This document shows positions 1,441 through 15,303 of a DNA stretch of 23,882 nt, piece after piece (position 1 is the stretch's first letter; each line of letters starts with the position of its first letter). The position numbers were made by a program, and so were the translations under genes. A model generated the notes under the pieces. The model saw nothing but the letters and a program-made list of their open reading frames with translations. It did not search any database and was not told where the DNA came from. The stretch covers positions 1 through 23,882 of the IMG/VR virus record IMGVR_UViG_3300030380_000804; one strand, written 5' to 3'. This DNA is from a virus.

Positions 1441-2181
1441 ATGGCATATGACTTTGTTGGATTAGTTAACGATGTTAATAGACGCTTGAATGAAGTAGAG
1501 CTTACGACTTCTAATTTTGCTACTGCCACTGGTTTTTATGGGCAAGCAAAAGATGCAGTCAATGCTTCTATTCGTTATATGAATCAATCTCAATACGAAT
1601 GGCCTTATAATCATGTAGAACAAGAAGATACTTTAACTGTAGGTGTTACACGATATGCTTTTCCTACAGATACAAAAGTAATTGACTTTGAAACTTTTAG
1701 AATTAAAGAAGATACTACTTTAGGAAATACTACAGTTAAATTACCTTTGATTTCTTACGAAGAGTATCTTGACAAATATGTAGACCAAGAGTATAATAGC
1801 ACGGCTACTTCTTCAGGACAGGGTGTTCCTCAGTTAGTATCTCATGCACCTTCGTTAGAATATATTATGACTCCTGCTCCTGATAAAGCATACACAGTTG
1901 TTTATGAGTACTATAGAATACCTGTTGATTTAGCTTTACATGACGATGTACCTGTTGTGCCAGAAAGATTTAGGCATATAATTGTTGATGGTGCTATGCA
2001 CTATGCATACCTATTTCGTGGCAATACCCAAGATGCTCTTGTAGCTAAAGAAAAGTTTGAAGAGGGTATTAGCCATATGAAGTCTATGTTAATCAATCGC
2101 TATACATATGTTCGCTCGTATCTTATACAGCAAAACACTGGTGGTGGCGGTAGAATGGGATACGCAAGGCTACCGTTGTAA
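1441..2181 (+). CDS. Head-tail adaptor / tail tubular protein A-like, 246 aa
   Basis: The protein begins with helices containing DVNRRLNEVELTTSNF and NASIRYMNQ..YEWPYN, then a beta region with an aromatic-rich YAFPTDTKVIDFETFRI segment, and ends with a long helix around residues 185-225 (RFRHIIVDGAMHYAYLFRG). This helix, beta insert, helix plan and the wording of the motifs match the phage adaptor family that includes SU10-type adaptors and is functionally equivalent to T7 gp11 (tail tubular protein A). Such proteins form the ring joining the portal to the tail nozzle. The length of about 200-250 aa is normal. The gene ends in TAATG, overlapping the tail nozzle gene, which is the expected partner. 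Confidence 0.7.
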   Translation: MAYDFVGLVNDVNRRLNEVELTTSNFATATGFYGQAKDAVNASIRYMNQSQYEWPYNHVEQEDTLTVGVTRYAFPTDTKVIDFETFRIKEDTTLGNTTVKLPLISYEEYLDKYVDQEYNSTATSSGQGVPQLVSHAPSLEYIMTPAPDKAYTVVYEYYRIPVDLALHDDVPVVPERFRHIIVDGAMHYAYLFRGNTQDALVAKEKFEEGISHMKSMLINRYTYVRSYLIQQNTGGGGRMGYARLPL

Positions 2182-4157
2182 TGGACAAATGGCAAACTTA
2201 TCCTATAGAATTTCGTGGTGGGTTAGTAACGAATTTAAGTCCTTTACAACAAGGAACAAATTTACCCGGTTCAGCACGAATACTACGTAACTACGAACCT
2301 TCTGTTGAAGGTGGGTACAGACGTATTGAAGGATATGAAAAATACGATAGCAATATTATACCGCCATATGGTGCGCCTGTTGTACACGGTGCAAGTCAAA
2401 GCGGCACAACACTTGTTATAGCTGCAATACATACAACACCAGTAGTAGGTGACACTTTTACAATAGCAGGAGTAACAGGTACATATACAATAGCATCAGG
2501 TGGTGTTTCATATGATGCTGCTACTAATAGAGCTAGTCTTACATTAACAGGTAGTTTAGCTTCAAGTCCCGCTAATGCAGCGGCTGTTACATTTGCAAGC
2601 ACTGTGTCTAACTATTTAGCATTAGGTGTTGCAAGCTGGGAAGATTCAGCAATTGTAGCAAAAAATGATGACCTGTTTAAAAGTACAGGCAGTGGTTTTA
2701 CAAAGATTAATGTTGAGGCTTTTGGAACACCTCTTGTTAATGGAGCAAGTCAAACAGGAACTAGTCTTGACGTAGATGGAATTGTAGGTATACCACAAGC
2801 AGGTGACGTATTTAAGATAGCAGGGGTAGACCTTACTTATACAGTAACCTCAGATGCATCTGTAACAAGCGGTGCTGCTACTATAGCGATTAGTCCAGCA
2901 CTGGCAAGTAGTCCAGCAGATAATGCAGCGATTACTTTTATATCTTCAAACAGAGAAGGTGCTGTAAGAGTTAGATTTGCTAAATATAATTTTAATGGCA
3001 CTGAAAAAATAGCCATAGTAGATGGAGCTAATGTTCCAGCACTATATGATGGTACAAACTTTACATCTTTAAATAGCGCACCTACAGATGTAGTAGGAGC
3101 AACGCATACAATCAAATATAAAAACGCACTGTTTTTTGGCAAAGGATCTACCTTATCTTTTACAGCACCTTTTGATGATGACAATTTTACCGTTGCAGAT
3201 GGTTCGGGTTCTATAAATGTAGGTGGTGTAATTTCTGGTTTAGTTGTTTTTAGAAATCAACTAATAATATTTACAGAAAGAAACATACAGCAATTAGTAG
3301 GAGATACTATTGCAAACTTTAGCTTACAGCCAATCACAGAAGACATTGGTTGTATTGAGGGAGATACAATAAGAGAAATAGGCGGTGATGTAATATTTCT
3401 TGGACCAGATGGTCTTAGATTGTTAAGTGCAACAGAGCGTATTAATGATTTTGGATTGGCTGCAATATCAAAAGTAATACAGCCTAATATAACAGATTTT
3501 ATTACTGCTAATACGAGTTTTACAAGTTGTGTTATTCGGGAAAAATCACAATATAGATTGTTGGGCTATAATAACAATATTGCACAATCAAGCGCACAAG
3601 GTGTAATAGCAACACAGTTTGCTGAACAGGGTGGGACTGGCACTGCCTTTGCAGAAACAAGAGGTATACGTGCTTATGTAGCAGACAGTAATTATAATGA
3701 AGCTGTAGAAGTTGTACTGTTTGCAAACAATGATGGCTATTTATACCAAATGGAATCAGGAAACAGTTTTGATGGTTCTAACATAGTAACTACGTTTGCT
3801 ACTCCACATTTAACTATTCAAGATCCTAGAGTACGTAAAACATTTTATAAAATATTTCTTTATACTGATCCACAAGGAAGTGTAAACTTTAATCTAAGTT
3901 TAAAACTTGATTTTGATACGACAGGAATCATACAACCTAGTCCTATAAACTTTGCTAATACTTCTGGTGTTGTAGGATTTTATGGGTTGGGAACATACGG
4001 AACTACAAAGTTTGGAGCAAAGTTAACAAAGTTATTTGAAACGCAGGTAATAGGATCAGGCTTTGCAGTTTCATTTCAATTCGACTCAAACAGTGCTGAT
4101 GCCCCGTTCTCTATTGATGCACTGACAGTAGAATATAGCAACAACGATAGAAGGTAG
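2181..4157 (+). CDS. Tail nozzle / tail tubular protein B-like, 658 aa
   Basis: The N-terminus (FRGGLVTNLSP, then RNYEPSVEGGYRRIEGY at about 36-52) is the signature of the large beta-propeller tail proteins that follow the adaptor in podoviruses, equivalent to T7 gp12 and to the P22 gp10 stabilisation protein. The middle contains propeller-like strands such as LVVFRNQLIIFTERNIQQLVG and later DVIFLGPDGLRLLSAT. Two related beta-rich modules of about 75 residues (64-139 and 182-254), with the patterns GDTFTIAGV..TYTI and GDVFKIAGVDLTYTV, are inserted near the N-terminus on either side of one blade-like segment. The protein would form the hexameric nozzle through which DNA exits. The ATG overlaps the stop of the adaptor gene, so the two are probably translationally coupled. 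Confidence 0.7.
   Translation: MDKWQTYPIEFRGGLVTNLSPLQQGTNLPGSARILRNYEPSVEGGYRRIEGYEKYDSNIIPPYGAPVVHGASQSGTTLVIAAIHTTPVVGDTFTIAGVTGTYTIASGGVSYDAATNRASLTLTGSLASSPANAAAVTFASTVSNYLALGVASWEDSAIVAKNDDLFKSTGSGFTKINVEAFGTPLVNGASQTGTSLDVDGIVGIPQAGDVFKIAGVDLTYTVTSDASVTSGAATIAISPALASSPADNAAITFISSNREGAVRVRFAKYNFNGTEKIAIVDGANVPALYDGTNFTSLNSAPTDVVGATHTIKYKNALFFGKGSTLSFTAPFDDDNFTVADGSGSINVGGVISGLVVFRNQLIIFTERNIQQLVGDTIANFSLQPITEDIGCIEGDTIREIGGDVIFLGPDGLRLLSATERINDFGLAAISKVIQPNITDFITANTSFTSCVIREKSQYRLLGYNNNIAQSSAQGVIATQFAEQGGTGTAFAETRGIRAYVADSNYNEAVEVVLFANNDGYLYQMESGNSFDGSNIVTTFATPHLTIQDPRVRKTFYKIFLYTDPQGSVNFNLSLKLDFDTTGIIQPSPINFANTSGVVGFYGLGTYGTTKFGAKLTKLFETQVIGSGFAVSFQFDSNSADAPFSIDALTVEYSNNDRR
2370..2942 (+). 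repeat. Duplicated beta-rich module in the tail nozzle protein
   Basis: Copy 1 spans about 2370-2597 and copy 2 about 2724-2942. Both contain, in the same order, GASQ[ST]GT, a GD.F.IAGV motif, a TYT strand, and SLASSPANAAAVTF or ALASSPADNAAITF at the end. Similar GD.F.IAGV modules occur in several phage coat and tail proteins (recall). The copies are diverged at DNA level. Confidence 0.75.
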
Positions 4158-7101: not shown

Positions 7102-7332
7102 ATGGAACTTTCAAGCATTATGTTTTGGAATATTTTTCTTACACTGGTTATAGCTCCAGCGTTTTGGATGTTCCGTTCATTAATGGCAGAAGTAAAGCGT
7201 ATTGATATACTACTAAATAAAACAAGAGAAGACTACGCAACTCGTTTAGAGTTACGTGATGACATGCGACAAGTAATGGATGCGTTACACAGAGTCGAAG
7301 ATAAACTAGATACAATGTTGAGTAGGAACTAA
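7102..7332 (+). CDS. Small membrane-anchored coiled-coil protein, 76 aa
   Basis: Residues about 6-26 (IMFWNIFLTLVIAPAFWMF) form one hydrophobic membrane segment. The remaining 50 residues are charged and helical, with a heptad-like pattern in RLELRDDMRQVMDALHRVED, so a coiled coil is likely. The layout of a short N-terminus, one membrane segment and a long coiled coil is compatible with an inner-membrane spanin or an unusual holin. However, basic residues (R25, K32, R33) just after the membrane segment favour a cytoplasmic C-terminus, which argues against a spanin. No endolysin gene is in the window to support a lysis cassette. It has a GAAGAG ribosome site and lies two bases before the ejection-protein gene. 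Confidence 0.65.
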   Translation: MELSSIMFWNIFLTLVIAPAFWMFRSLMAEVKRIDILLNKTREDYATRLELRDDMRQVMDALHRVEDKLDTMLSRN

Positions 7333-7334
7333 GT

Positions 7335-9584
7335 ATGGCAATGTTCAAAGCATTTAAACCCAGTGGAATGGAAAAAATAGCACGTTCTATGGGCTATCAG
7401 GGTAACATGCAAAACTTTCAAAGTTTTCTTGCACAAGACCCGATGAGACAACAACAAATGCAAAATTTTACAAATAAAGCTATGCAGATGGCTAGAGGCG
7501 GTGTTGTAAAAATGCAACAAGGTGGACAGCCTACAGGTCAGCCTATTTTATATAGTGGACAACAAGCACCTACGCCTGTTTTATCTCAACCGCCAGAACA
7601 ACAGTTTACAAGAACAGAACCCGTTTTATATAAAAAAGGTGACAAAGATATACCAAAAGGTAAAAAACCGGGAGATATTAAAACGCCCGGAACTAAAACA
7701 CCTATACCCGGAATCGCTTCATTTACAACACAACAAATGTATAACCCTGCTTTGCCTCAAGGTGGCGTAACAGTAGCTGCACAAATGCAGCCAACTAGAG
7801 ATCAAGACATTGACCCTAGAACGGGTATGCTTCGTGGTCAAGTTGCTGCTGGAACAACAATGGCTACAACTGCACAAGCAGCAATGCAACAACAAACTGA
7901 CGCAAACTTAATGCAAGCAGTAACTGCTGCACCTGCTATTGACGCTGCTGTAAATTCAGTTCAAGCTGCACAACTTAATCCTGACGATCCTCGTAATCAG
8001 ATAACTGCTGCACAACAAACAGCATCTTCTGTGGGTAGCCTAGATGCAGCACAGGGCAATGAGATACTTATCGACAATCCTGTGCAACGTCAAATACAAC
8101 AGGGTGAATTAATCAGTGGCACAGGCGTTGATGCTGCTAAAGCTGCAAAGTTAACTGCACAAACAGAAGCTGCTGCTGCTACTGCACAGCCAAGCCAACA
8201 AGCTATGGTGGCAGAACAGCTTGATGGTCTGATGCAGGACTTTGAAGGTGGTACTACACCAGCATGGGCTGCAGGAGCTATGAGGGCTGCTACAGCGGCT
8301 ATGGCTGCTCGTGGGCTAGGTTCTTCTAGCCTTGCGGGTCAGGCTGTTGTACAGGCTGCTATGGAGTCTGCGTTACCTATTGCACAAGCAGATGCGGCTA
8401 CAATAGCTAGGTTTGAATCACAGAACTTATCTAATAGACAGCAATCAGCGATGCTGGCTGCAGAACAACGTGCTAAATTTATGGGCATGGAGTTTGACCA
8501 AGCATTTCAAACAAAAGTAATGAATGCCAGCAAAATTAGTGACATTGCTAATCAAAACTTTACTGCAGAACAACAGGTGCAGCTAGAAAACTCTCGTATC
8601 GCTAACACAATGAATTTAAATAACCTGTCTAATACACAGGCTCTTGTAATGGCTGAAGCTGCTGCACTTTCACAACTAGACACTTCAAATTTAAATAATC
8701 GCCAACAAGCTGCTGTGCAAAATGCGCAAAGTTTCATGCAGCTTAATATGGCTAACTTGTCTAATCAGCAACAGACTGAACTGTTTAAAGCACAACAAAG
8801 AGTTCAATCATTATTTACGGATCAAGCTGCAGAAAATGCGTCACGGCAGTTTAATGCATCTAGTCAAAATCAAGTTGACCAGTTCTTTGCAAATCTCTCA
8901 AGCCAAACTTCACAATTTAATGCATCTCAAAGAAATGCACAGGCTAAGTTTAATGCTGGCGAAGCAAACGCTCAAGAAAGATTTAATGCAGACTTAAATA
9001 ACCAACGTGACCAGTTTAACGCACAGAACCAACTTGTGATTGCACAGTCTAATGCTCAATGGCGTAGACAAATTGCAACTGCAAATACGGCAGCTATTAA
9101 TCGTGCTAACGAATTAAATGCTTCTGCTGTTCTTGATATAAGTAAAACGGCGTATGATAATTTGTGGAATTTTTATTCTGATAGTATGGAGTGGGCGTGG
9201 ACATCTTCTGAAAATCAACTAGATCGTATAAATGCTTTAGCTCTTGCTGAAGTAGATGCTAAAACAAGAGCTAGAATTGCAAAAGAACAAGGACGATCTG
9301 CTGCAGGTTCTGCTATCGGTGGTTTAATTGGTACTATAGGTGCTGCATTAATTCAATGCTGGGTAGCACGGGAAGTTTATGGTAATAATGATATGCGTTG
9401 GTTTATATTCCGTGCTTGGTTAAAGTATGACGCACCTAAGTGGTTTGAAAAACTATACTTGACACACGGTGAAAAATATGCTAAGTTTATAAGTAACAAG
9501 CCACCACTAAAATGGTGTACTAAAAAACTTATGGACTTAGTTGTTGAACGCAAAGGAAAGATGCACAATGTCCAGACAGTATAA
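7335..9584 (+). CDS. Internal virion / ejection-type protein with 11-residue repeats, 749 aa
   Basis: Four regions are visible. (1) Residues 1-130 are Gln/Met/Pro-rich with ARGGVVKMQQGGQ, probably a flexible entry segment. (2) Residues 165-360 are Ala/Gln-rich and helical. (3) Residues 363-604 are about 22 consecutive 11-residue units, most with Asn at position 2 and the clearest reading FNA. (4) A glycine-rich hydrophobic segment follows, GSAIGGLIGTIGAALIQ (657-673), and then a C-terminal domain beginning CWVAREVYG and rich in Trp, Lys and Tyr (674-740). A membrane-inserting segment after a long helical rod suits a protein ejected to form a DNA conduit, like the T7 gp14/gp15/gp16 set. The position before further ejection-type genes agrees. 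No enzyme motif is visible. The function is inferred from architecture. The start has AGGA seven bases upstream. Confidence 0.65.
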   Translation: MAMFKAFKPSGMEKIARSMGYQGNMQNFQSFLAQDPMRQQQMQNFTNKAMQMARGGVVKMQQGGQPTGQPILYSGQQAPTPVLSQPPEQQFTRTEPVLYKKGDKDIPKGKKPGDIKTPGTKTPIPGIASFTTQQMYNPALPQGGVTVAAQMQPTRDQDIDPRTGMLRGQVAAGTTMATTAQAAMQQQTDANLMQAVTAAPAIDAAVNSVQAAQLNPDDPRNQITAAQQTASSVGSLDAAQGNEILIDNPVQRQIQQGELISGTGVDAAKAAKLTAQTEAAAATAQPSQQAMVAEQLDGLMQDFEGGTTPAWAAGAMRAATAAMAARGLGSSSLAGQAVVQAAMESALPIAQADAATIARFESQNLSNRQQSAMLAAEQRAKFMGMEFDQAFQTKVMNASKISDIANQNFTAEQQVQLENSRIANTMNLNNLSNTQALVMAEAAALSQLDTSNLNNRQQAAVQNAQSFMQLNMANLSNQQQTELFKAQQRVQSLFTDQAAENASRQFNASSQNQVDQFFANLSSQTSQFNASQRNAQAKFNAGEANAQERFNADLNNQRDQFNAQNQLVIAQSNAQWRRQIATANTAAINRANELNASAVLDISKTAYDNLWNFYSDSMEWAWTSSENQLDRINALALAEVDAKTRARIAKEQGRSAAGSAIGGLIGTIGAALIQCWVAREVYGNNDMRWFIFRAWLKYDAPKWFEKLYLTHGEKYAKFISNKPPLKWCTKKLMDLVVERKGKMHNVQTV
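8421..9146 (+). repeat. Hendecad (33-bp) protein repeat array in the ejection-type protein
   Basis: Units of 11 residues start at residues 363, 374, 385, 396 and so on, up to 594. Sixteen of 22 units have Asn at position 2. Six consecutive units (506-571) begin FNA, FFA, FNA, FNA, FNA, FNA, and the next three start SNA, ANT and LNA. There are no insertions or deletions in the register as counted by eye. Eleven-residue periods are typical of right-handed or nearly straight coiled coils. Confidence 0.8.
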
Positions 9585-9780
9585 TCCCGCAATACAATCA
9601 TATAAAAATATGAAGTTAGATGAGATGCCTAAACAGCAAAAGAAACAGGCATCAGGATTACTTGCGCCTAAAAATATGAACATGACAAATGCTGATGAAG
9701 ATTTGTCTAGTCCTTTAGTGCGTGTTAAAAAACATATGCAAGCTATACGTGAACGTAGGATATCTAAACATGGCACTTGA
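9568..9780 (+). CDS. Small basic phage protein, 70 aa, function unknown
   Basis: I chose ATG 9568 (MSRQYNPAIQSYKNMKLDEM) because AAAGGAAAG lies 8-16 bases upstream. An in-frame TTG at 9541 would add nine residues without a better ribosome site. The gene overlaps the end of the 749-aa gene by 17 bases in another frame. The protein is Lys-, Arg- and Gln-rich with no hydrophobic stretch; residues 40-68 look helical and basic (RVKKHMQAIRERRISKHG). I do not recognise a family. Its place inside the ejection-protein cluster suggests a minor virion or assembly role. It overlaps the next gene by 11 bases. Confidence 0.6.
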   Translation: MSRQYNPAIQSYKNMKLDEMPKQQKKQASGLLAPKNMNMTNADEDLSSPLVRVKKHMQAIRERRISKHGT

Positions 9781-10279
9781 CACAACTCCACTATTTGATG
9801 CACCGATTCCGGGTATGTCTTTGACCCACGAATTAGGCGCAAGACCTTGGCAACAGCCAGCACAGTATCCTACTGTGGATGAGGCCATTCAATATTATAT
9901 GGATAAAATGACATCTGATGAGTTTATGGATCAGCTTATTGATGTAGTTGAAATGGGTATACCCGTTGCAGACATTGCAAATATTATGCAAGTATCTAGC
10001 GTAATGGAAGGCGTTCATAGTTTAGATGTGGGTGTGCTAGTGGCTCCCGTTTTAATGGAAATGATTATGTTTATTGCTGAAAGTGCTGACGCTGAATATG
10101 TAACTGGACTTGATGAGCCTACTGAGGGGCAAGTAAGTAAAGCTAAAATGGCTAAAATTATGCAAGAACTTGAGCAAGAGGTTGGTAATATTGAGCAGCC
10201 AGAAGAAACTGAAACAGCTAAAGTAGAACAAGCTGATAGTGAAAATAAGCCTAAAGGCTTAATGGGACGGAGACAATAA
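9770..10279 (+). CDS. Conserved phage structural-cluster protein, 169 aa
   Basis: ATG 9770 is preferred over an upstream in-frame ATG (9722), because AGGA lies at 9757-9760 with suitable spacing and MALDTTPLFDAPIPGMSLTH is a natural phage-like N-terminus. The protein has a PGMSLTHELGARPWQQPAQY segment, a helical core (DEAIQYYMDKMTSDEFMDQL to about 120) with LDVGVLVAPVLMEMIMFIAE, then an acidic Glu-rich tail ending KGLMGRR. I recall homologues with an RPW..PpqY segment, a G.h.lDVG.LiAPvl motif and a terminal GLM.RR in marine phage structural clusters, but no proven function. The hydrophobic helix is moderate, so membrane insertion is uncertain. The stop overlaps the ATG of the following gene by one base (TAATG), consistent with coupled translation. 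Confidence 0.65.
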   Translation: MALDTTPLFDAPIPGMSLTHELGARPWQQPAQYPTVDEAIQYYMDKMTSDEFMDQLIDVVEMGIPVADIANIMQVSSVMEGVHSLDVGVLVAPVLMEMIMFIAESADAEYVTGLDEPTEGQVSKAKMAKIMQELEQEVGNIEQPEETETAKVEQADSENKPKGLMGRRQ

Positions 10280-11568
10280 TGAGTTTTGGCGAAGGTTTTG
10301 TAACAGGATTAGCTAGTTCATTAGATAGAGCATTGCAAGTTGATATGCAACGTAACATGGATAGAATGTCACGTGCGGAGGAGTTTGCCACAAGACGCAG
10401 ATTACAAAAAATTGAGTTTACAGAAACTAAAGGAAGAGAATTAAAAGAAAATTTACGAGAACTTGCTGCTCTTACGGGAAGCAATCGCCGTGCAGCTATG
10501 GCTGCTGAAGGTGTTGGTGGTACTTCAGATGCAATTGCTGAACTTGTAACAGACTTAAAAGAACAACGAAAAAAATTAGGAAAAGAGTTTAGCGTTAGTA
10601 AGTTTATTGATTTTTCTGGTGAAGAAACTTTAACAGACCCACGTACTCTTGTTGATAATTTTAATAGGTTTAAGCCTGACGTAGACTTTAGTGCTAAAAT
10701 ACCTTCTGGAATGGGTAAGACTACTGGTCTTATGGGTGCATTAGGCATAGAAATGAAACGTGATATAGGTGCAGACGTAGAAGCTACTGTTCCAGTTGAC
10801 GAAGAATACACAGCACCTCGTGATACATCAGAAATACCTTCGGCAACTATTAGTTTTGCTGAAGGGTATGAAGCAAGAGAGTTTGCTGCTAAGTTTGAAA
10901 AAAATAAAGACGAGGCGTATAAAAGCACGGAAAACATTCTTGCGTATGGTCAACAGTTAATGCTAGAAAATAAGCCGGGTACAGATGCACATACTCAAGG
11001 CCAGACATACTATGATATGGCTATGCAAACTCTGAAAGAGAAGAAACAGAATGAAAACGCAGACAATGCAACAACACTAAATCCAACAACTGGAATTAAA
11101 ATAGTTGACCAAGTAAAAAATACTTTTTATGATGCGGAATTTACAGAGACAACTAAAGATAGGCTGATAGCTAAACTAACTGGTACAAGTTCATATAAAG
11201 CTTATTTTGCTGCGCAGCCTTCTGTGATTGATGAGATACAGAAAACAACAGCAGCTTATAATAATGATGCTACACTGCAAAACTTTTTGCGTGTTGAGCA
11301 ACGTGCTTTTAATACCAATACTCAAACATATCTTAATAAGTTTTCTCAACAAGATATAGAAGAGAATAAAGCATATACCTTTGATGAGGATGGAAATGCA
11401 ACAGCCAATGCAGCTATTGAACCTAGTGCGACAGTTGATGCACAAGGCAAACCTCTGTTTGGTATTGGTGATATGAGCATGGTTAAGTATTATGACCCAC
11501 AGAATAATACTTATATAGGAGATACTGTCGCAGTTTGGATGGGTAATGACTGGGCTTACTTGGAGTAA
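10279..11568 (+). CDS. Internal virion-type structural protein, 429 aa
   Basis: The N-terminus, MSFGEGFVTGLASSLDRALQ, is a short amphipathic helix followed by a strongly charged helical segment to about residue 65 (RMSRAEEFATRRRLQKIEF). Residues about 70-190 are mixed, with FIDFSGEETLTDPRTLVDNF. About 190-270 and 280-370 are helical, and the C-terminal part (380-429) is Asn/Thr/Gly-rich and beta-like. I recall marine phage proteins with similar M.F..GF..G....d..l starts next to large ejection proteins, but no named function. No catalytic motif is visible. The gene overlaps its upstream neighbour by one base and is followed five bases later by the 1233-aa gene, so a role in the internal core is the best inference. 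Confidence 0.55.
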   Translation: MSFGEGFVTGLASSLDRALQVDMQRNMDRMSRAEEFATRRRLQKIEFTETKGRELKENLRELAALTGSNRRAAMAAEGVGGTSDAIAELVTDLKEQRKKLGKEFSVSKFIDFSGEETLTDPRTLVDNFNRFKPDVDFSAKIPSGMGKTTGLMGALGIEMKRDIGADVEATVPVDEEYTAPRDTSEIPSATISFAEGYEAREFAAKFEKNKDEAYKSTENILAYGQQLMLENKPGTDAHTQGQTYYDMAMQTLKEKKQNENADNATTLNPTTGIKIVDQVKNTFYDAEFTETTKDRLIAKLTGTSSYKAYFAAQPSVIDEIQKTTAAYNNDATLQNFLRVEQRAFNTNTQTYLNKFSQQDIEENKAYTFDEDGNATANAAIEPSATVDAQGKPLFGIGDMSMVKYYDPQNNTYIGDTVAVWMGNDWAYLE

Positions 11569-11573
11569 GTTAC

Positions 11574-14500
11574 ATGGTTAAGATACTTAATTACGCATCT
11601 CCTGAAATAGAAGAGCAGTATACTACACAGGAAACTGAAGACCAGCCTGTTGTAGATACAAGCACTATAGCAAAACCAGTACAGGAAGAAACAAAACCTG
11701 TAACAAAAGGTCCACGTATCCTGCGTCCTGCAGGTACAACAACTCCCCCTAAAGCAAGTATATCAGCAGTACGTGCAGCGCAGTCTAGTGCGCCTACAGG
11801 ACCATCTGTGCCTACAGGTGTAACTGAAGAAGATATTGCTTTTGAAGAGGCTAAAAAAGAACAAGAACGGTTAGCAGCTATTGAAACTAAAATAGATTAT
11901 GAAGCTGCTGATGCTGAAACAGATATGCCTCAAACAGATAAATTTAAGTTTATGACTAGGGAACAGATGGTGCGACTTGGTATGGCTACACCAGAAAAAG
12001 TAGTAGACACTACTACACGTGCGTATCGTGCTAGAAAAGAAAATGCTGAAACTGCAGAGGATATTGCTAGTGGTGCAGCAGAACTGGGTATATCAGAAAA
12101 CGAGTTTATTCGTGATTTTGTCATACCTCGTATGCCAGACAAGGTAGATGCTAATGGTGATCCTGACGAAAACGGCAACCCAAGCCTTATGAAAAAGTTT
12201 TTGTCTACGCCTGTGGCTGGACCTGTATTTATGCGGTCTTTGCTCAAGGTAGGTGGAGCTATAAATGTAGGCACTGCAGCCTATAACGATTTTATAGACG
12301 ATGCAGTTACATCCCTTGCTGAAAATAGTCCAGATACATATAAAGATGTTAGTAAGTTTGTATTTGGCGGTAAGGTGGACAAAGATACTTTTGTTAAGAA
12401 GCTAATGCGTGAGTCGGGAAACACTTTGCTCATGCTTGAAGGTATACCTGCATTGGGTACAGGTGCTAAACTAGGTAGTGATTTTAAACAAGCTGCTAAA
12501 CAGGTAGAAAAAGAAAGCCGTAGATTAAATGTACAAATGGCTAAAGCAATGTCACAAAAGCAAGCTGATGAGAAAGCTGCGCTGGCTAAAGATGTTGCCA
12601 AACAAAATAAACAAATAACTACAGACTATATTAAAGAGTTTGAGCAAAAGATTGGCGCACGTAGTAAACTAAATATTGAAGAAGTCATAGATGAAAGCAA
12701 GATAATATCAACTGCAAAAGGTGGGCAGCTTATTATAGACGAAAAGAAAGCACGTGCTGTTGGCAAACAAAAGCTAGAGGATATAGATGGTCAACCTATT
12801 AACCTTATAAACATGGCTGAAGGTGAAGACAAAGTAGCAGACTTCTTGGATTTAGCGGGTGATACTTTGACTATCAATGTTATTCGTCCAGAAAAACTAG
12901 ATGCATTTACTGCTGCTGCTGCTGACATTATTGCTAAGAAGCCAGACTTATACAATCCAAAGAAACGCTTAGTAGATAACTTATTTGAAATGTCCGTTAA
13001 TCAAGAAGCACTACAAACAGATGAGTTGCTTTCCTTATTAAATAAATATGATCTATCCTATGAAGACTACGCTACTATGGTTCTTGGCTCTGCCAGTGAT
13101 GCAGGTAGGGTGCTACAGAAATTCTCTCAGCTATCTAAACGCATAAAACCTAAAGGTGAAATAGATAATATCCGTGCTGCTGCTGTGCTGGATAATCAAA
13201 ACGGTATTATGAAGTTTATCCGTAGAACTGAGAACATTCGCCGTGGATTGCTGGTGTCTCAGATTGCTACTGCTGCACGTAACTTAACGTCTGCAGGTAT
13301 TCGTGCGCCATTAGAGGGTCTACAAAACGTAATGGACACTGCTTTATATAACATGGGGCAGGAAGGGATAGCCGCAGGTGCTAAGTCTATTGTGTCTAGG
13401 GCTAACTGGGACGATAGCTTTAGGCATATGCGCTACATGTTTGACGCTAAAAATGCTAGTGAGGTACGTGGCTATACAGACTTCGTTCTGTCTCGTCCCG
13501 GCATGAGCCAACAGTTTGATATGATGTATAATCAGATTAACGAAGTACGTAGAGCAACGGGTGCTGGTACAGGCGGTAAACTGGATAAGACACTAACCTT
13601 TATTGAGGATGGTGTAGATGTATTGAACACACCAAACCGTTGGCAGGAATATCTTGTTAGACGCAGTTCGTTCTTGGCTGAACTAGAACGTCTGTCAAAG
13701 AATGAGTATGGCATAGACCTGATTGAAGAGGTTAATGCAGGTAGACTTAATGACTTATTAAATGATGCTCCTGATATTATAGGAGATAAACGATCTTTCA
13801 AGCAACTTGTAGCTGACGCTACAGAAAAAGCATTGGACATTACCTATGCCAAGCAACCAGATACAGAAGTATTCAGGAACATTACGTCATTTATTACAAA
13901 CAATGGTCTGACTATTATTACTCCATTCCCACGCTTTATGTTTAACAGCATGGAGTTATTTGGCAACTATGCTTTTGGTGCATTAGCACCGCTAAGAAGA
14001 AAAGCAATGGGCATTGCCATTAAAGAAAGACGTGGGCCGCTATCTGCTAAAGAACGTAAGCAGCTATCTCGTAACATAATTGGTGTTATGGGTATATTGC
14101 CAGCAGCTATGTACTATCGTGGTCAGGAAGACGCACCAACAGATTACAAGATGCTGCGCACTGATGATGATAAGCTGATGGACACAACACCACAGTCGCC
14201 TATCTTGCGTCAGGCTTTGTGGATTGCTGAAGCTGCAAAAAGATATAATGATGGTACATTATCTAACTGGTATGACCACCGTGACGCTAAAGAAACATTC
14301 CTTGGTGTTAACGTGCGCACTGGCGCAGGTGATGCAGTCTTTAATGACATTGCAAAGATGATTGAAACTGCTGATGCGCAGAGTGGAGAGACTATAGGCT
14401 CTACATTTGGCACTATATTTGGTGAGTATGCTGCTACGTACTTTACACCACTAAATCAAATCATTGATGCGCAGCGTGGCACAGGTGAACGTGGGTTAGA

Positions 14501-15275
14501 GTATAGAGATGTACGCCAAGAGCCTGTGCTTGGTGAAACAGGTGTTGAAACAGCAATTGAATCGTTTAAGCGTGAGGCTGCAGAGCCTTTTGCTAGGCGT
14601 GGCTATGCAACTTTGCTGTCCCCAGAGGAAGAGGATAAGTTACCGTTAACAGAAACACTATTCCAAGAGGGAGAAAAACGGGAACGTATTATGCCACTAC
14701 TCAAGGTGTTTACTGGTATTGGTTTGACAAAAGAATCTAGTGAAGCAGGTAAGTTTCTTGAGGGGCTGGGCTTTCGTGATTACAAGATACGTACTAAAAC
14801 TATATCGCCGGGCTTCCAAAGATATGAAACCAAAGTTCTTCGTGAGTTACTTCCCACTATGGTAGACGTAGTAAAAAGCCCAGAGTTCATGCGCATATAT
14901 CGCACTGAGGCACGTAAGCGCAGTCCAGAGGAGCGTGAAAGAAAATCTGATGAGGCGTTCATTAAAGATGAACAGACAAGACGCATCACAGAAATACTAG
15001 CAGATTACAAACGTGCCATTGACCCTGTTCTTGAAGGGCAGGATGAAAAGGGATTAGTTGACCCAAAGACTGGTAATCCTATTGATGTACGTTTAACAGG
15101 TTATCTTGAGGCACAACAAAAGCTGCGTAAAATGAAACCAGCAGAAAGACGTGCGGCTCGTAATGCTTTGCCTAATATACTGCAGGAGTTAGGGCGAGGG
15201 GACGAGAAGCCTAGCTTTGCTAATGAAGACCACGTTAGAATGATGTTAGAGTATATCAAAGAAACTAGACTATAA
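11574..15275 (+). CDS. Large internal virion / ejection protein, 1233 aa
   Basis: This is the largest gene and the last of the late block, the place taken by the large core protein (gp16 equivalent) in T7-like phages. Residues 1-110 are Pro/Thr-rich and low in complexity. About 300-365 are strongly charged and helical, probably coiled coil (KQVEKESRRLNVQMAKAMSQ). About 530-700 hold a helical region with RRGLLVSQIATAARNLTSAG. About 765-850 contain FPRFMFNSMELFGNYAFG and a hydrophobic IIGVMGILPAAMYY that could insert in a membrane. The C-terminus is Arg/Lys/Glu-rich. I looked for the Glu-Ser type lytic transglycosylase motif that T7 gp16 carries at its N-terminus and saw none. The function is inferred from size, position and helical content. 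GGAG lies eight bases before ATG. Confidence 0.6.
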   Translation: MVKILNYASPEIEEQYTTQETEDQPVVDTSTIAKPVQEETKPVTKGPRILRPAGTTTPPKASISAVRAAQSSAPTGPSVPTGVTEEDIAFEEAKKEQERLAAIETKIDYEAADAETDMPQTDKFKFMTREQMVRLGMATPEKVVDTTTRAYRARKENAETAEDIASGAAELGISENEFIRDFVIPRMPDKVDANGDPDENGNPSLMKKFLSTPVAGPVFMRSLLKVGGAINVGTAAYNDFIDDAVTSLAENSPDTYKDVSKFVFGGKVDKDTFVKKLMRESGNTLLMLEGIPALGTGAKLGSDFKQAAKQVEKESRRLNVQMAKAMSQKQADEKAALAKDVAKQNKQITTDYIKEFEQKIGARSKLNIEEVIDESKIISTAKGGQLIIDEKKARAVGKQKLEDIDGQPINLINMAEGEDKVADFLDLAGDTLTINVIRPEKLDAFTAAAADIIAKKPDLYNPKKRLVDNLFEMSVNQEALQTDELLSLLNKYDLSYEDYATMVLGSASDAGRVLQKFSQLSKRIKPKGEIDNIRAAAVLDNQNGIMKFIRRTENIRRGLLVSQIATAARNLTSAGIRAPLEGLQNVMDTALYNMGQEGIAAGAKSIVSRANWDDSFRHMRYMFDAKNASEVRGYTDFVLSRPGMSQQFDMMYNQINEVRRATGAGTGGKLDKTLTFIEDGVDVLNTPNRWQEYLVRRSSFLAELERLSKNEYGIDLIEEVNAGRLNDLLNDAPDIIGDKRSFKQLVADATEKALDITYAKQPDTEVFRNITSFITNNGLTIITPFPRFMFNSMELFGNYAFGALAPLRRKAMGIAIKERRGPLSAKERKQLSRNIIGVMGILPAAMYYRGQEDAPTDYKMLRTDDDKLMDTTPQSPILRQALWIAEAAKRYNDGTLSNWYDHRDAKETFLGVNVRTGAGDAVFNDIAKMIETADAQSGETIGSTFGTIFGEYAATYFTPLNQIIDAQRGTGERGLEYRDVRQEPVLGETGVETAIESFKREAAEPFARRGYATLLSPEEEDKLPLTETLFQEGEKRERIMPLLKVFTGIGLTKESSEAGKFLEGLGFRDYKIRTKTISPGFQRYETKVLRELLPTMVDVVKSPEFMRIYRTEARKRSPEERERKSDEAFIKDEQTRRITEILADYKRAIDPVLEGQDEKGLVDPKTGNPIDVRLTGYLEAQQKLRKMKPAERRAARNALPNILQELGRGDEKPSFANEDHVRMMLEYIKETRL

Positions 15276-15299: not shown

Positions 15300-15303
15300 T
15301 CTT

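Follow-up and report, generated by a model that had tools for sequence, protein, structure and literature searches.

The window considered here, i.e. the whole stretch of viral DNA that was analysed (23,882 nucleotides; 23.9 kb), is, as judged from its sequence, a fragment of a short-tailed phage of the HMO-2011 type. Phages of this type are among the commonest in the sea. Besides the genes listed in Table 1, the window was found by sequence and profile searches to encode a phage endonuclease I, a class II ribonucleotide reductase and a family A DNA polymerase. The GC skew flips sign at about position 15,300, at the junction of a rightward structural operon and a leftward replication operon. 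The product of the gene matching gp77 of podophage GP4 is probably the site at which the fibres dock. Directly before the gene that is the main subject of this work lies a gene (7102-7332) that may be one of the lysis genes located at this place in relatives; its 76-aa product has a single membrane-type segment at the N-terminus and a tail resembling a coiled coil.

Table 1. Features of the window and of its repeat protein (positions are those of the window; residues are those of the repeat protein)
Feature	Position	Strand	Basis or remark
Match to fibre-tail adaptor gp77 of podophage GP4, PF23148	1093-1437		E 1.7e-14
SU10-type head-tail adaptor, PF24175	1441..2181	+	Profile match; short-tail machinery
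Nozzle/'amidase' family tail protein, phrog_5107	2181..4157	+	Profile match
Repeat protein, 749 aa	7335..9584	+	Orthologue of HMO-2011 gp25, 61% identity over 99%
Conserved helical N-terminal segment, residues 1-55	7335..7499	+	Helices 9-53 predicted
N-side anchor block, residues 306-352, 'WAAGAMRAA..ARGLGSSS..ALPIA'	8250..8390	+	Conserved ahead of the array
22 consecutive 11-residue units, residues 363-604	8421..9146	+	Helix predicted; among relatives the length varies in steps of 11
C-side anchor block, residues 561-648, W576 and 'ENQLDR' R631	9015..9278	+	Conserved; helix 604-654 continuous
Gly-rich hydrophobic segment, residues 655-674, glycine-zipper type	9297..9356	+	Sequence
CWVAREVYG domain, residues 675-749, compact helical	9357..9581	+	AF2; subset of relatives only
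~185-aa cassette protein	9722..10279	+	Listed with a GTG start; translation may instead begin at an ATG at 9770
429-aa cassette protein, mostly helical	10279..11568	+	Slot of P22 gp20/T7 gp15-like proteins
1,233-aa cassette protein	11574..15275	+	Slot of T7 gp16/SU10 gp24

The orthologue of the repeat protein in Puniceispirillum phage HMO-2011, gp25, is annotated as a hypothetical protein only. The same gene is found in the same slot in 27 HMO-2011-type records, and by this orthology the window protein is a member of an existing but undescribed group; no earlier report of a repeat in gp25, or of a quantised length, was found in the literature searched. Comparisons of the repeat protein with Pfam, PHROG and the PDB sequences gave nothing meaningful (a match to LRR_EndoS with an E value of 0.01 was taken as chance), and a Foldseek search with the full AF2 model returned no match below E 0.001. 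Similarly, no relation to the P22 gp7 family, SU10 gp21/22, T7 gp14 or phiX174 H was detected by profile comparison, the values for H being an hhalign probability of <1% and an HMM E value of ~0.2.

The two ends of the protein vary among its relatives. The first-pass annotation had pointed to a glycine-zipper hydrophobic segment behind the repeats, and a Gly-rich hydrophobic tail is indeed seen in many relatives. The Trp/Tyr/Lys-rich domain that was described as beginning with CWVAREVYG is also real, starting at residue 675, and a small helical fold is predicted for it by AF2 (pLDDT 91-94), but it is not a constant feature of the family and among phage records it is present in HMO-2011 only. 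Other relatives end after a short hydrophobic/Gly-rich segment, or with S74 or other tails, and the C-terminus thus appears to be swappable. At the opposite end, five relatives of 1,021-1,660 aa (L066, L074, L081, L082, and L280) carry several hundred additional residues ahead of the conserved part, for which no Pfam match was obtained except for a weak helix-turn-helix in L280.

The middle of the protein had been described as 22 units in an exact 11-residue register (residues 363-604), and this description is confirmed both by reading of the individual units and by autocorrelation of the translation, in which the 11-residue signal is far above chance. For residues 356-606, the numbers of identity matches at lags of 11, 22, 33, and 44 were 45, 49, 46, and 49, respectively, where 21-24 are expected (z values of 4.7, 5.9, 5.6, and 6.8), and the observed values were reached in 0 of 5,000 shuffles. 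Of the neighbouring lags, 10 and 13 did not exceed an absolute z of 2 and 12 was depleted. In a windowed scan, the period-11 z value was 9.6 for the window protein and 5.45 for phiX174 H, which served as a positive control, while T7 gp14/15/16, P22 gp7, and SU10 gp20-24 all scored <2.4. The count of Asn at unit position 2 (16 of 22 units) was likewise correct. The repeated FNA starts reported for units 506-571 hold for those at residues 506, 528, 539, 550, and 561, but the unit at 517 starts with FFA; the unit at residue 572 starts with SNA. Across the family the register extends past these 22 units, back to residue ~352 and on to ~631.

The length of the array was examined in relatives gathered from viral contigs, bacterial genome contigs and phage records, and 241 distinct proteins were measured. 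Two anchors were located by separate HMMs, viz. the ALPIA block before the array and the W...ENxxDR block after it, and the distance from anchor to anchor was determined, the repeats never being aligned as a whole. Anchors defined by simple regular expressions proved insufficiently strict (93 of 115 proteins fell in one class) and were replaced by the HMM anchors with checked residues. The distances range from 195 to 833 residues and take 19 values, the window protein having 283. The difference from 283 is an exact multiple of 11 in 240 of the 241 proteins and in 18 of the 19 length classes; the sole exception (L182) carries one inserted residue in the unit that comes last before the conserved Trp. 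At the measured anchor positions Pro is present in 239 and Arg in 232 of the 241 proteins, and among the 230 that have both, 229 follow the multiple-of-11 rule. In the flanks of the same proteins, which provide a control, 152 distinct lengths are observed from the start to the first anchor and 47 from the second anchor to the end, with all eleven classes modulo 11 occupied. By parsimony on a tree based upon the anchor blocks, ~30 independent length changes are needed, such figures being counts under a simple model and not exact probabilities. The data exclude a model in which the array may gain or lose residues in any number. The repeat regions (69,078 residues in total) contain no Pro and no Cys, and they have 1.4% Gly, 30.6% Asn + Gln and 17.9% Ala.

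Three of the relatives (L166, L167, and L171) are located on bacterial MAG contigs that were binned with Bacteroidota (Sphingobacteriales, Winogradskyella, and Flavobacteriaceae). The hosts of the family may thus include bacteria other than proteobacteria, although mis-binning of phage contigs is also possible.

Concerning the manner in which the arrays change in length, adjacent 33-nt units in the window share 37% DNA identity, which is the value for random unit pairs, and slippage is therefore not now at work there. In one clade of long arrays, with distances of 393, 503, 613, 723, and 833, growth has been by 110 residues at a time, and the corresponding 330-nt blocks are up to 91% identical in DNA. 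Growth by blocks of ten hendecads was seen in L248, L250, L280, L249, L254, L290, and L287, and the distances of the very long arrays lie on 283 + 110n and 371 + 110n. The highly similar blocks of this one clade indicate that whole units are duplicated, as would also be expected if multiples of 11 were a mere by-product of duplication and deletion of repeat-unit DNA, with no structural constraint. We regard such an origin as most improbable, since the 33-nt units of the window lack DNA similarity above background, a one-residue indel is present in only one of the 241 proteins despite divergence to ~30% identity while the flanks vary freely, and duplication accounts for gains but not for the absence of other persisting indels. 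These observations are best explained by whole-unit duplication as the supply of length changes, with other indels being lost through selection against register shifts; it is the failure of indels other than multiples of 11 to persist over divergence down to ~30% identity that points to such selection.

Eleven residues correspond to three helical turns, and length changes by whole hendecads are the rule that is expected where each helix packs on its neighbours along its full length. In the AF2 model (based upon 40 relatives) the region is predicted to form helices at residues 333-382, 389-472, 479-599, and 604-654, with short breaks at 383-388, 473-478, and 600-603; within the array the confidence values are modest, for the most part 40-78, with the highest (~76-78) at residues 510-590. 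The proposal of a long, continuous and register-locked helical rod is thus supported by the autocorrelation, the AF2 helices, the anchor distances and the absence of Pro. A beta-solenoid, which was prompted by the ladder of Asn residues, was rejected in view of the lack of Pro, the 1.4% Gly, the high Ala and Gln content and the helices in the AF2 model. A part of the first-pass annotation that is not supported as stated is the kind of packing, for which a straight or right-handed coiled coil had been suggested; the one hydrophobic seam that an ordinary coiled coil of this kind would have is not seen. The hydrophobic power at 3/11 is at the random level (mean 1.15), whereas that at 4/11 is 16.3 and at 5/11 is 10.9, and each helix has instead two hydrophobic seams, at positions 9/1 and 11/3, that are ~164/196 degrees apart. 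The averaged unit is F/A1 N2 A3 S/Q4 N/A5 R6 Q/N7 Q8 [AIVM]9 [AD]10 [LQM]11, with Phe as the most frequent residue at position 1. Read from position 9, it consists of hphhphp followed by four mostly polar residues, a register that fits best in 99.6% of the 241 relatives. The smaller angle between the seams (~164 degrees) holds positions 4 and 8, which are occupied by Ser, Gln, Asn, Ala, and Thr; charges occur mainly at positions 6 and 10, and position 2 (mostly Asn) resembles positions 4 and 8 in charge. The hphhphp arrangement is the Type-3 pattern, in which two distinct seams are reported to give large barrels (PMC6175849). The array has this two-seam pattern and may form a barrel, the number of strands of which cannot be told from the pattern. 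A closed barrel, if formed, would have mostly amides and small polar residues facing its lumen, like the phiX174 H tube.

Additional information is provided by the genes that follow. In each of the 200 loci whose downstream sequence is long enough, the repeat gene is followed by a homologue of the ~185-aa protein, and in annotated relatives this is followed by a protein of ~370-930 aa and then by one of ~820-1,670 aa or larger. Of the three cassette proteins, the ~185-aa neighbour is by far the best conserved (~250 homologous ORFs versus 30 for the 429-aa and 65 for the 1,233-aa protein in the same loci); it is universal in the group and had no family match. In Pelagibacter phage HTVC103P, a phage lysozyme domain was found in the protein that takes the place of the 1,233-aa protein. 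For the 429-aa protein no significant fold match was obtained, the best row from Foldseek/VIA-align with its AF2 model being a pre-ejectosome chain of cyanophage A4, whose Z score of 6.5 over 69 residues does not stand out from the background of helical proteins. The cassette is in the same end-of-operon slot as SU10 gp20-24, proteins that are in virions and are missing after genome release (PMC9509320), and the ejection operons of T7 and P22 are similarly arranged (PMC8954989). The earlier suggestion of a putative DNA-ejection protein therefore agrees with the setting of the gene, which by synteny (200/200 loci) lies within a conserved putative ejection cassette.

Two relatives (CRP-3 and L209) carry a C-terminal S74 domain, whose nearest outside relatives include the S74 domains of annotated DNA ejection proteins. 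Ejection proteins with a related S74 in a similar slot are gp20 of phage 7-11 (phrog_4287) and gp11 of AH02, the latter of which, with its S74 removed, still matches the P22 gp7 family (phrog_598) and directly precedes a P22-like injection protein. An apparent homology of CRP-3 and L209 to ejection proteins via phrog_4287/phrog_6121 was rejected, as the matches vanish once S74 is removed. Outside S74, and for members without it, no profile match to phrog_598, phrog_805 or phrog_4287 was found. As no profile match of the repeat family is obtained without S74, homology of its sequences to the known ejection families is not claimed.

Elsewhere, the S74 domain matures trimeric fibres. Its presence in two relatives would fit a role of the protein as an external fibre or whisker, i.e. 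a coiled-coil shaft of low order (e.g., trimeric) that is attached to the tail or neck and bears the CWVAREVYG domain or the S74 chaperone as interchangeable C-terminal heads, as would the position of the repeat gene after the tail-fibre and lysis genes and array lengths of up to 125 nm. We nevertheless consider this role unlikely. The S74 domain is also found on the annotated ejection proteins noted above, the two-seamed hydrophobic pattern is not trimer-like, the C-terminal tail of most members is short and has neither a receptor-binding nor a beta domain, and the repeat gene is linked to the cassette, with the ~185-aa homologue in all testable loci.

The reading that we prefer, with a probability of roughly one-half, is that the protein is a virion protein that is ejected and whose copies form a rod or tube across the cell envelope; no virion proteomics of these phages was found in the literature searched. 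The middle of the protein would be a long uninterrupted alpha-helix of hendecads, and several copies side by side, each touching two neighbours, would make a wide barrel or sheet with positions 4 and 8 (Gln/Asn/Ser) on one face and most of the charges (positions 6 and 10, and less so 2) on the other. The copies would exit the head together with the ~185-, ~430-, and ~1,230-aa cassette proteins, the rod or tube would prolong the short tail across the envelope, and the Gly-rich hydrophobic C-terminus would insert in the membrane or cap the structure there. Such a tube would act in the manner of the phiX174 H tube or of the T7 gp15/DEV gp72 tunnels, with its length set by the number of hendecads.

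The system to which this arrangement may best be compared is phiX174 H, in which hendecads and heptads form a decameric tube of 170 A with 18 of 23 inward residues being N, Q or R (PMC7354561). Both proteins show hendecads by the same test, H has an N/Q/R-rich helix, and both would serve DNA delivery without a long tail. However, H has three hendecads followed by heptads and makes a tube of fixed length (17 nm), whereas the present family has ~18-76 hendecads, a two-seam pattern that is compatible with a tube, dsDNA phages as carriers, and no sequence similarity to H. Helices with two seams can also pack as open sheets, and the seam angle of 164 degrees is near flat, which would suit a helical sheet, a lattice or a DNA-organising coat within the head; such a structure in place of a tube seems very doubtful to us, given the gene slot that is shared with ejected proteins and an amide-rich face like that of the phiX174 tube. 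The protein also resembles the podophage ejection proteins P22 gp7/gp20/gp16, T7 gp14/15/16, SU10 gp20-24, and DEV gp72/gp73 in its slot, helical nature, Gly-rich hydrophobic end and occasional S74 or lysozyme modules, but those tested share no homology with it outside S74 and none has a comparable hendecad array.

In its variation of length the family is similar to the tape-measure proteins of siphophages, which have variable whole numbers of 11-aa repeats and block duplications (Belcaid et al. 2011, PMC3271669). This likeness, together with Phe as the commonest residue at unit position 1 and the duplication of blocks as whole units, might indicate an internal ruler or plug in the head or tail lumen that fixes the geometry of the assembly surrounding it. 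Unlike the carriers of tape-measure proteins, however, these phages are short-tailed and the repeat protein is in an ejection-type cassette. Phage MQM1 has a capsid of ~70 nm and a tail of 9.2 nm by TEM (PMC10410586), and the SU10-type adaptor and nozzle were present in 10-12 of the 17 records checked, including records with the longest arrays if of sufficient length, the remainder being mostly short fragments. With no long tail to measure, an internal ruler is quite unlikely. By analogy, the protein would work most like phiX174 H and vary in length like the 11-residue tape-measure proteins, being a member of neither family. We tentatively suggest, as a possible specific form of the ejected rod or tube, a ruler-like helical tube protein that acts after ejection. 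Its ~18 to 76 hendecads would determine how long a wide alpha-barrel conduit for dsDNA becomes, and it would evolve by one hendecad or by a block of ten at a time; such a protein would parallel the phiX174 H tube by convergence and on a larger scale, and would be a 'tape measure without a tail'.

The chief difficulty for the preferred reading is the length of the rod, which had been described in the first-pass annotation as similar in scale to the cell envelope. This is correct for the window protein, whose rod, if straight, would measure 42 nm between the anchors and 36 nm over residues 363-604, but it does not extend to the family, in which fully helical arrays of ~18-76 hendecads would be 29 to 125 nm. 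An array of 833 residues, 125 nm if helical, is longer than the 70 nm capsid of MQM1 and than the usual envelope, and hence bending, folding back or some other use has to be assumed for the longest arrays at least. For the family as a whole, a rule by which the rod is as long as the envelope is wide finds no support; folding back of the arrays, their extension into the cytoplasm and surface layers of greater thickness are possible explanations.

To our knowledge, structural detail on how short-tailed phages cross the envelope is available for few systems only. The present work indicates that a gene that is seen as noise by family libraries obeys a strict geometric rule across hundreds of abundant marine phages. 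Its natural length variants, of 29 to 125 nm as a helix, make it possible to ask what the length of the rod must match. If the proposed reading is true, ssDNA and dsDNA phages would have converged on tubes made of hendecads.
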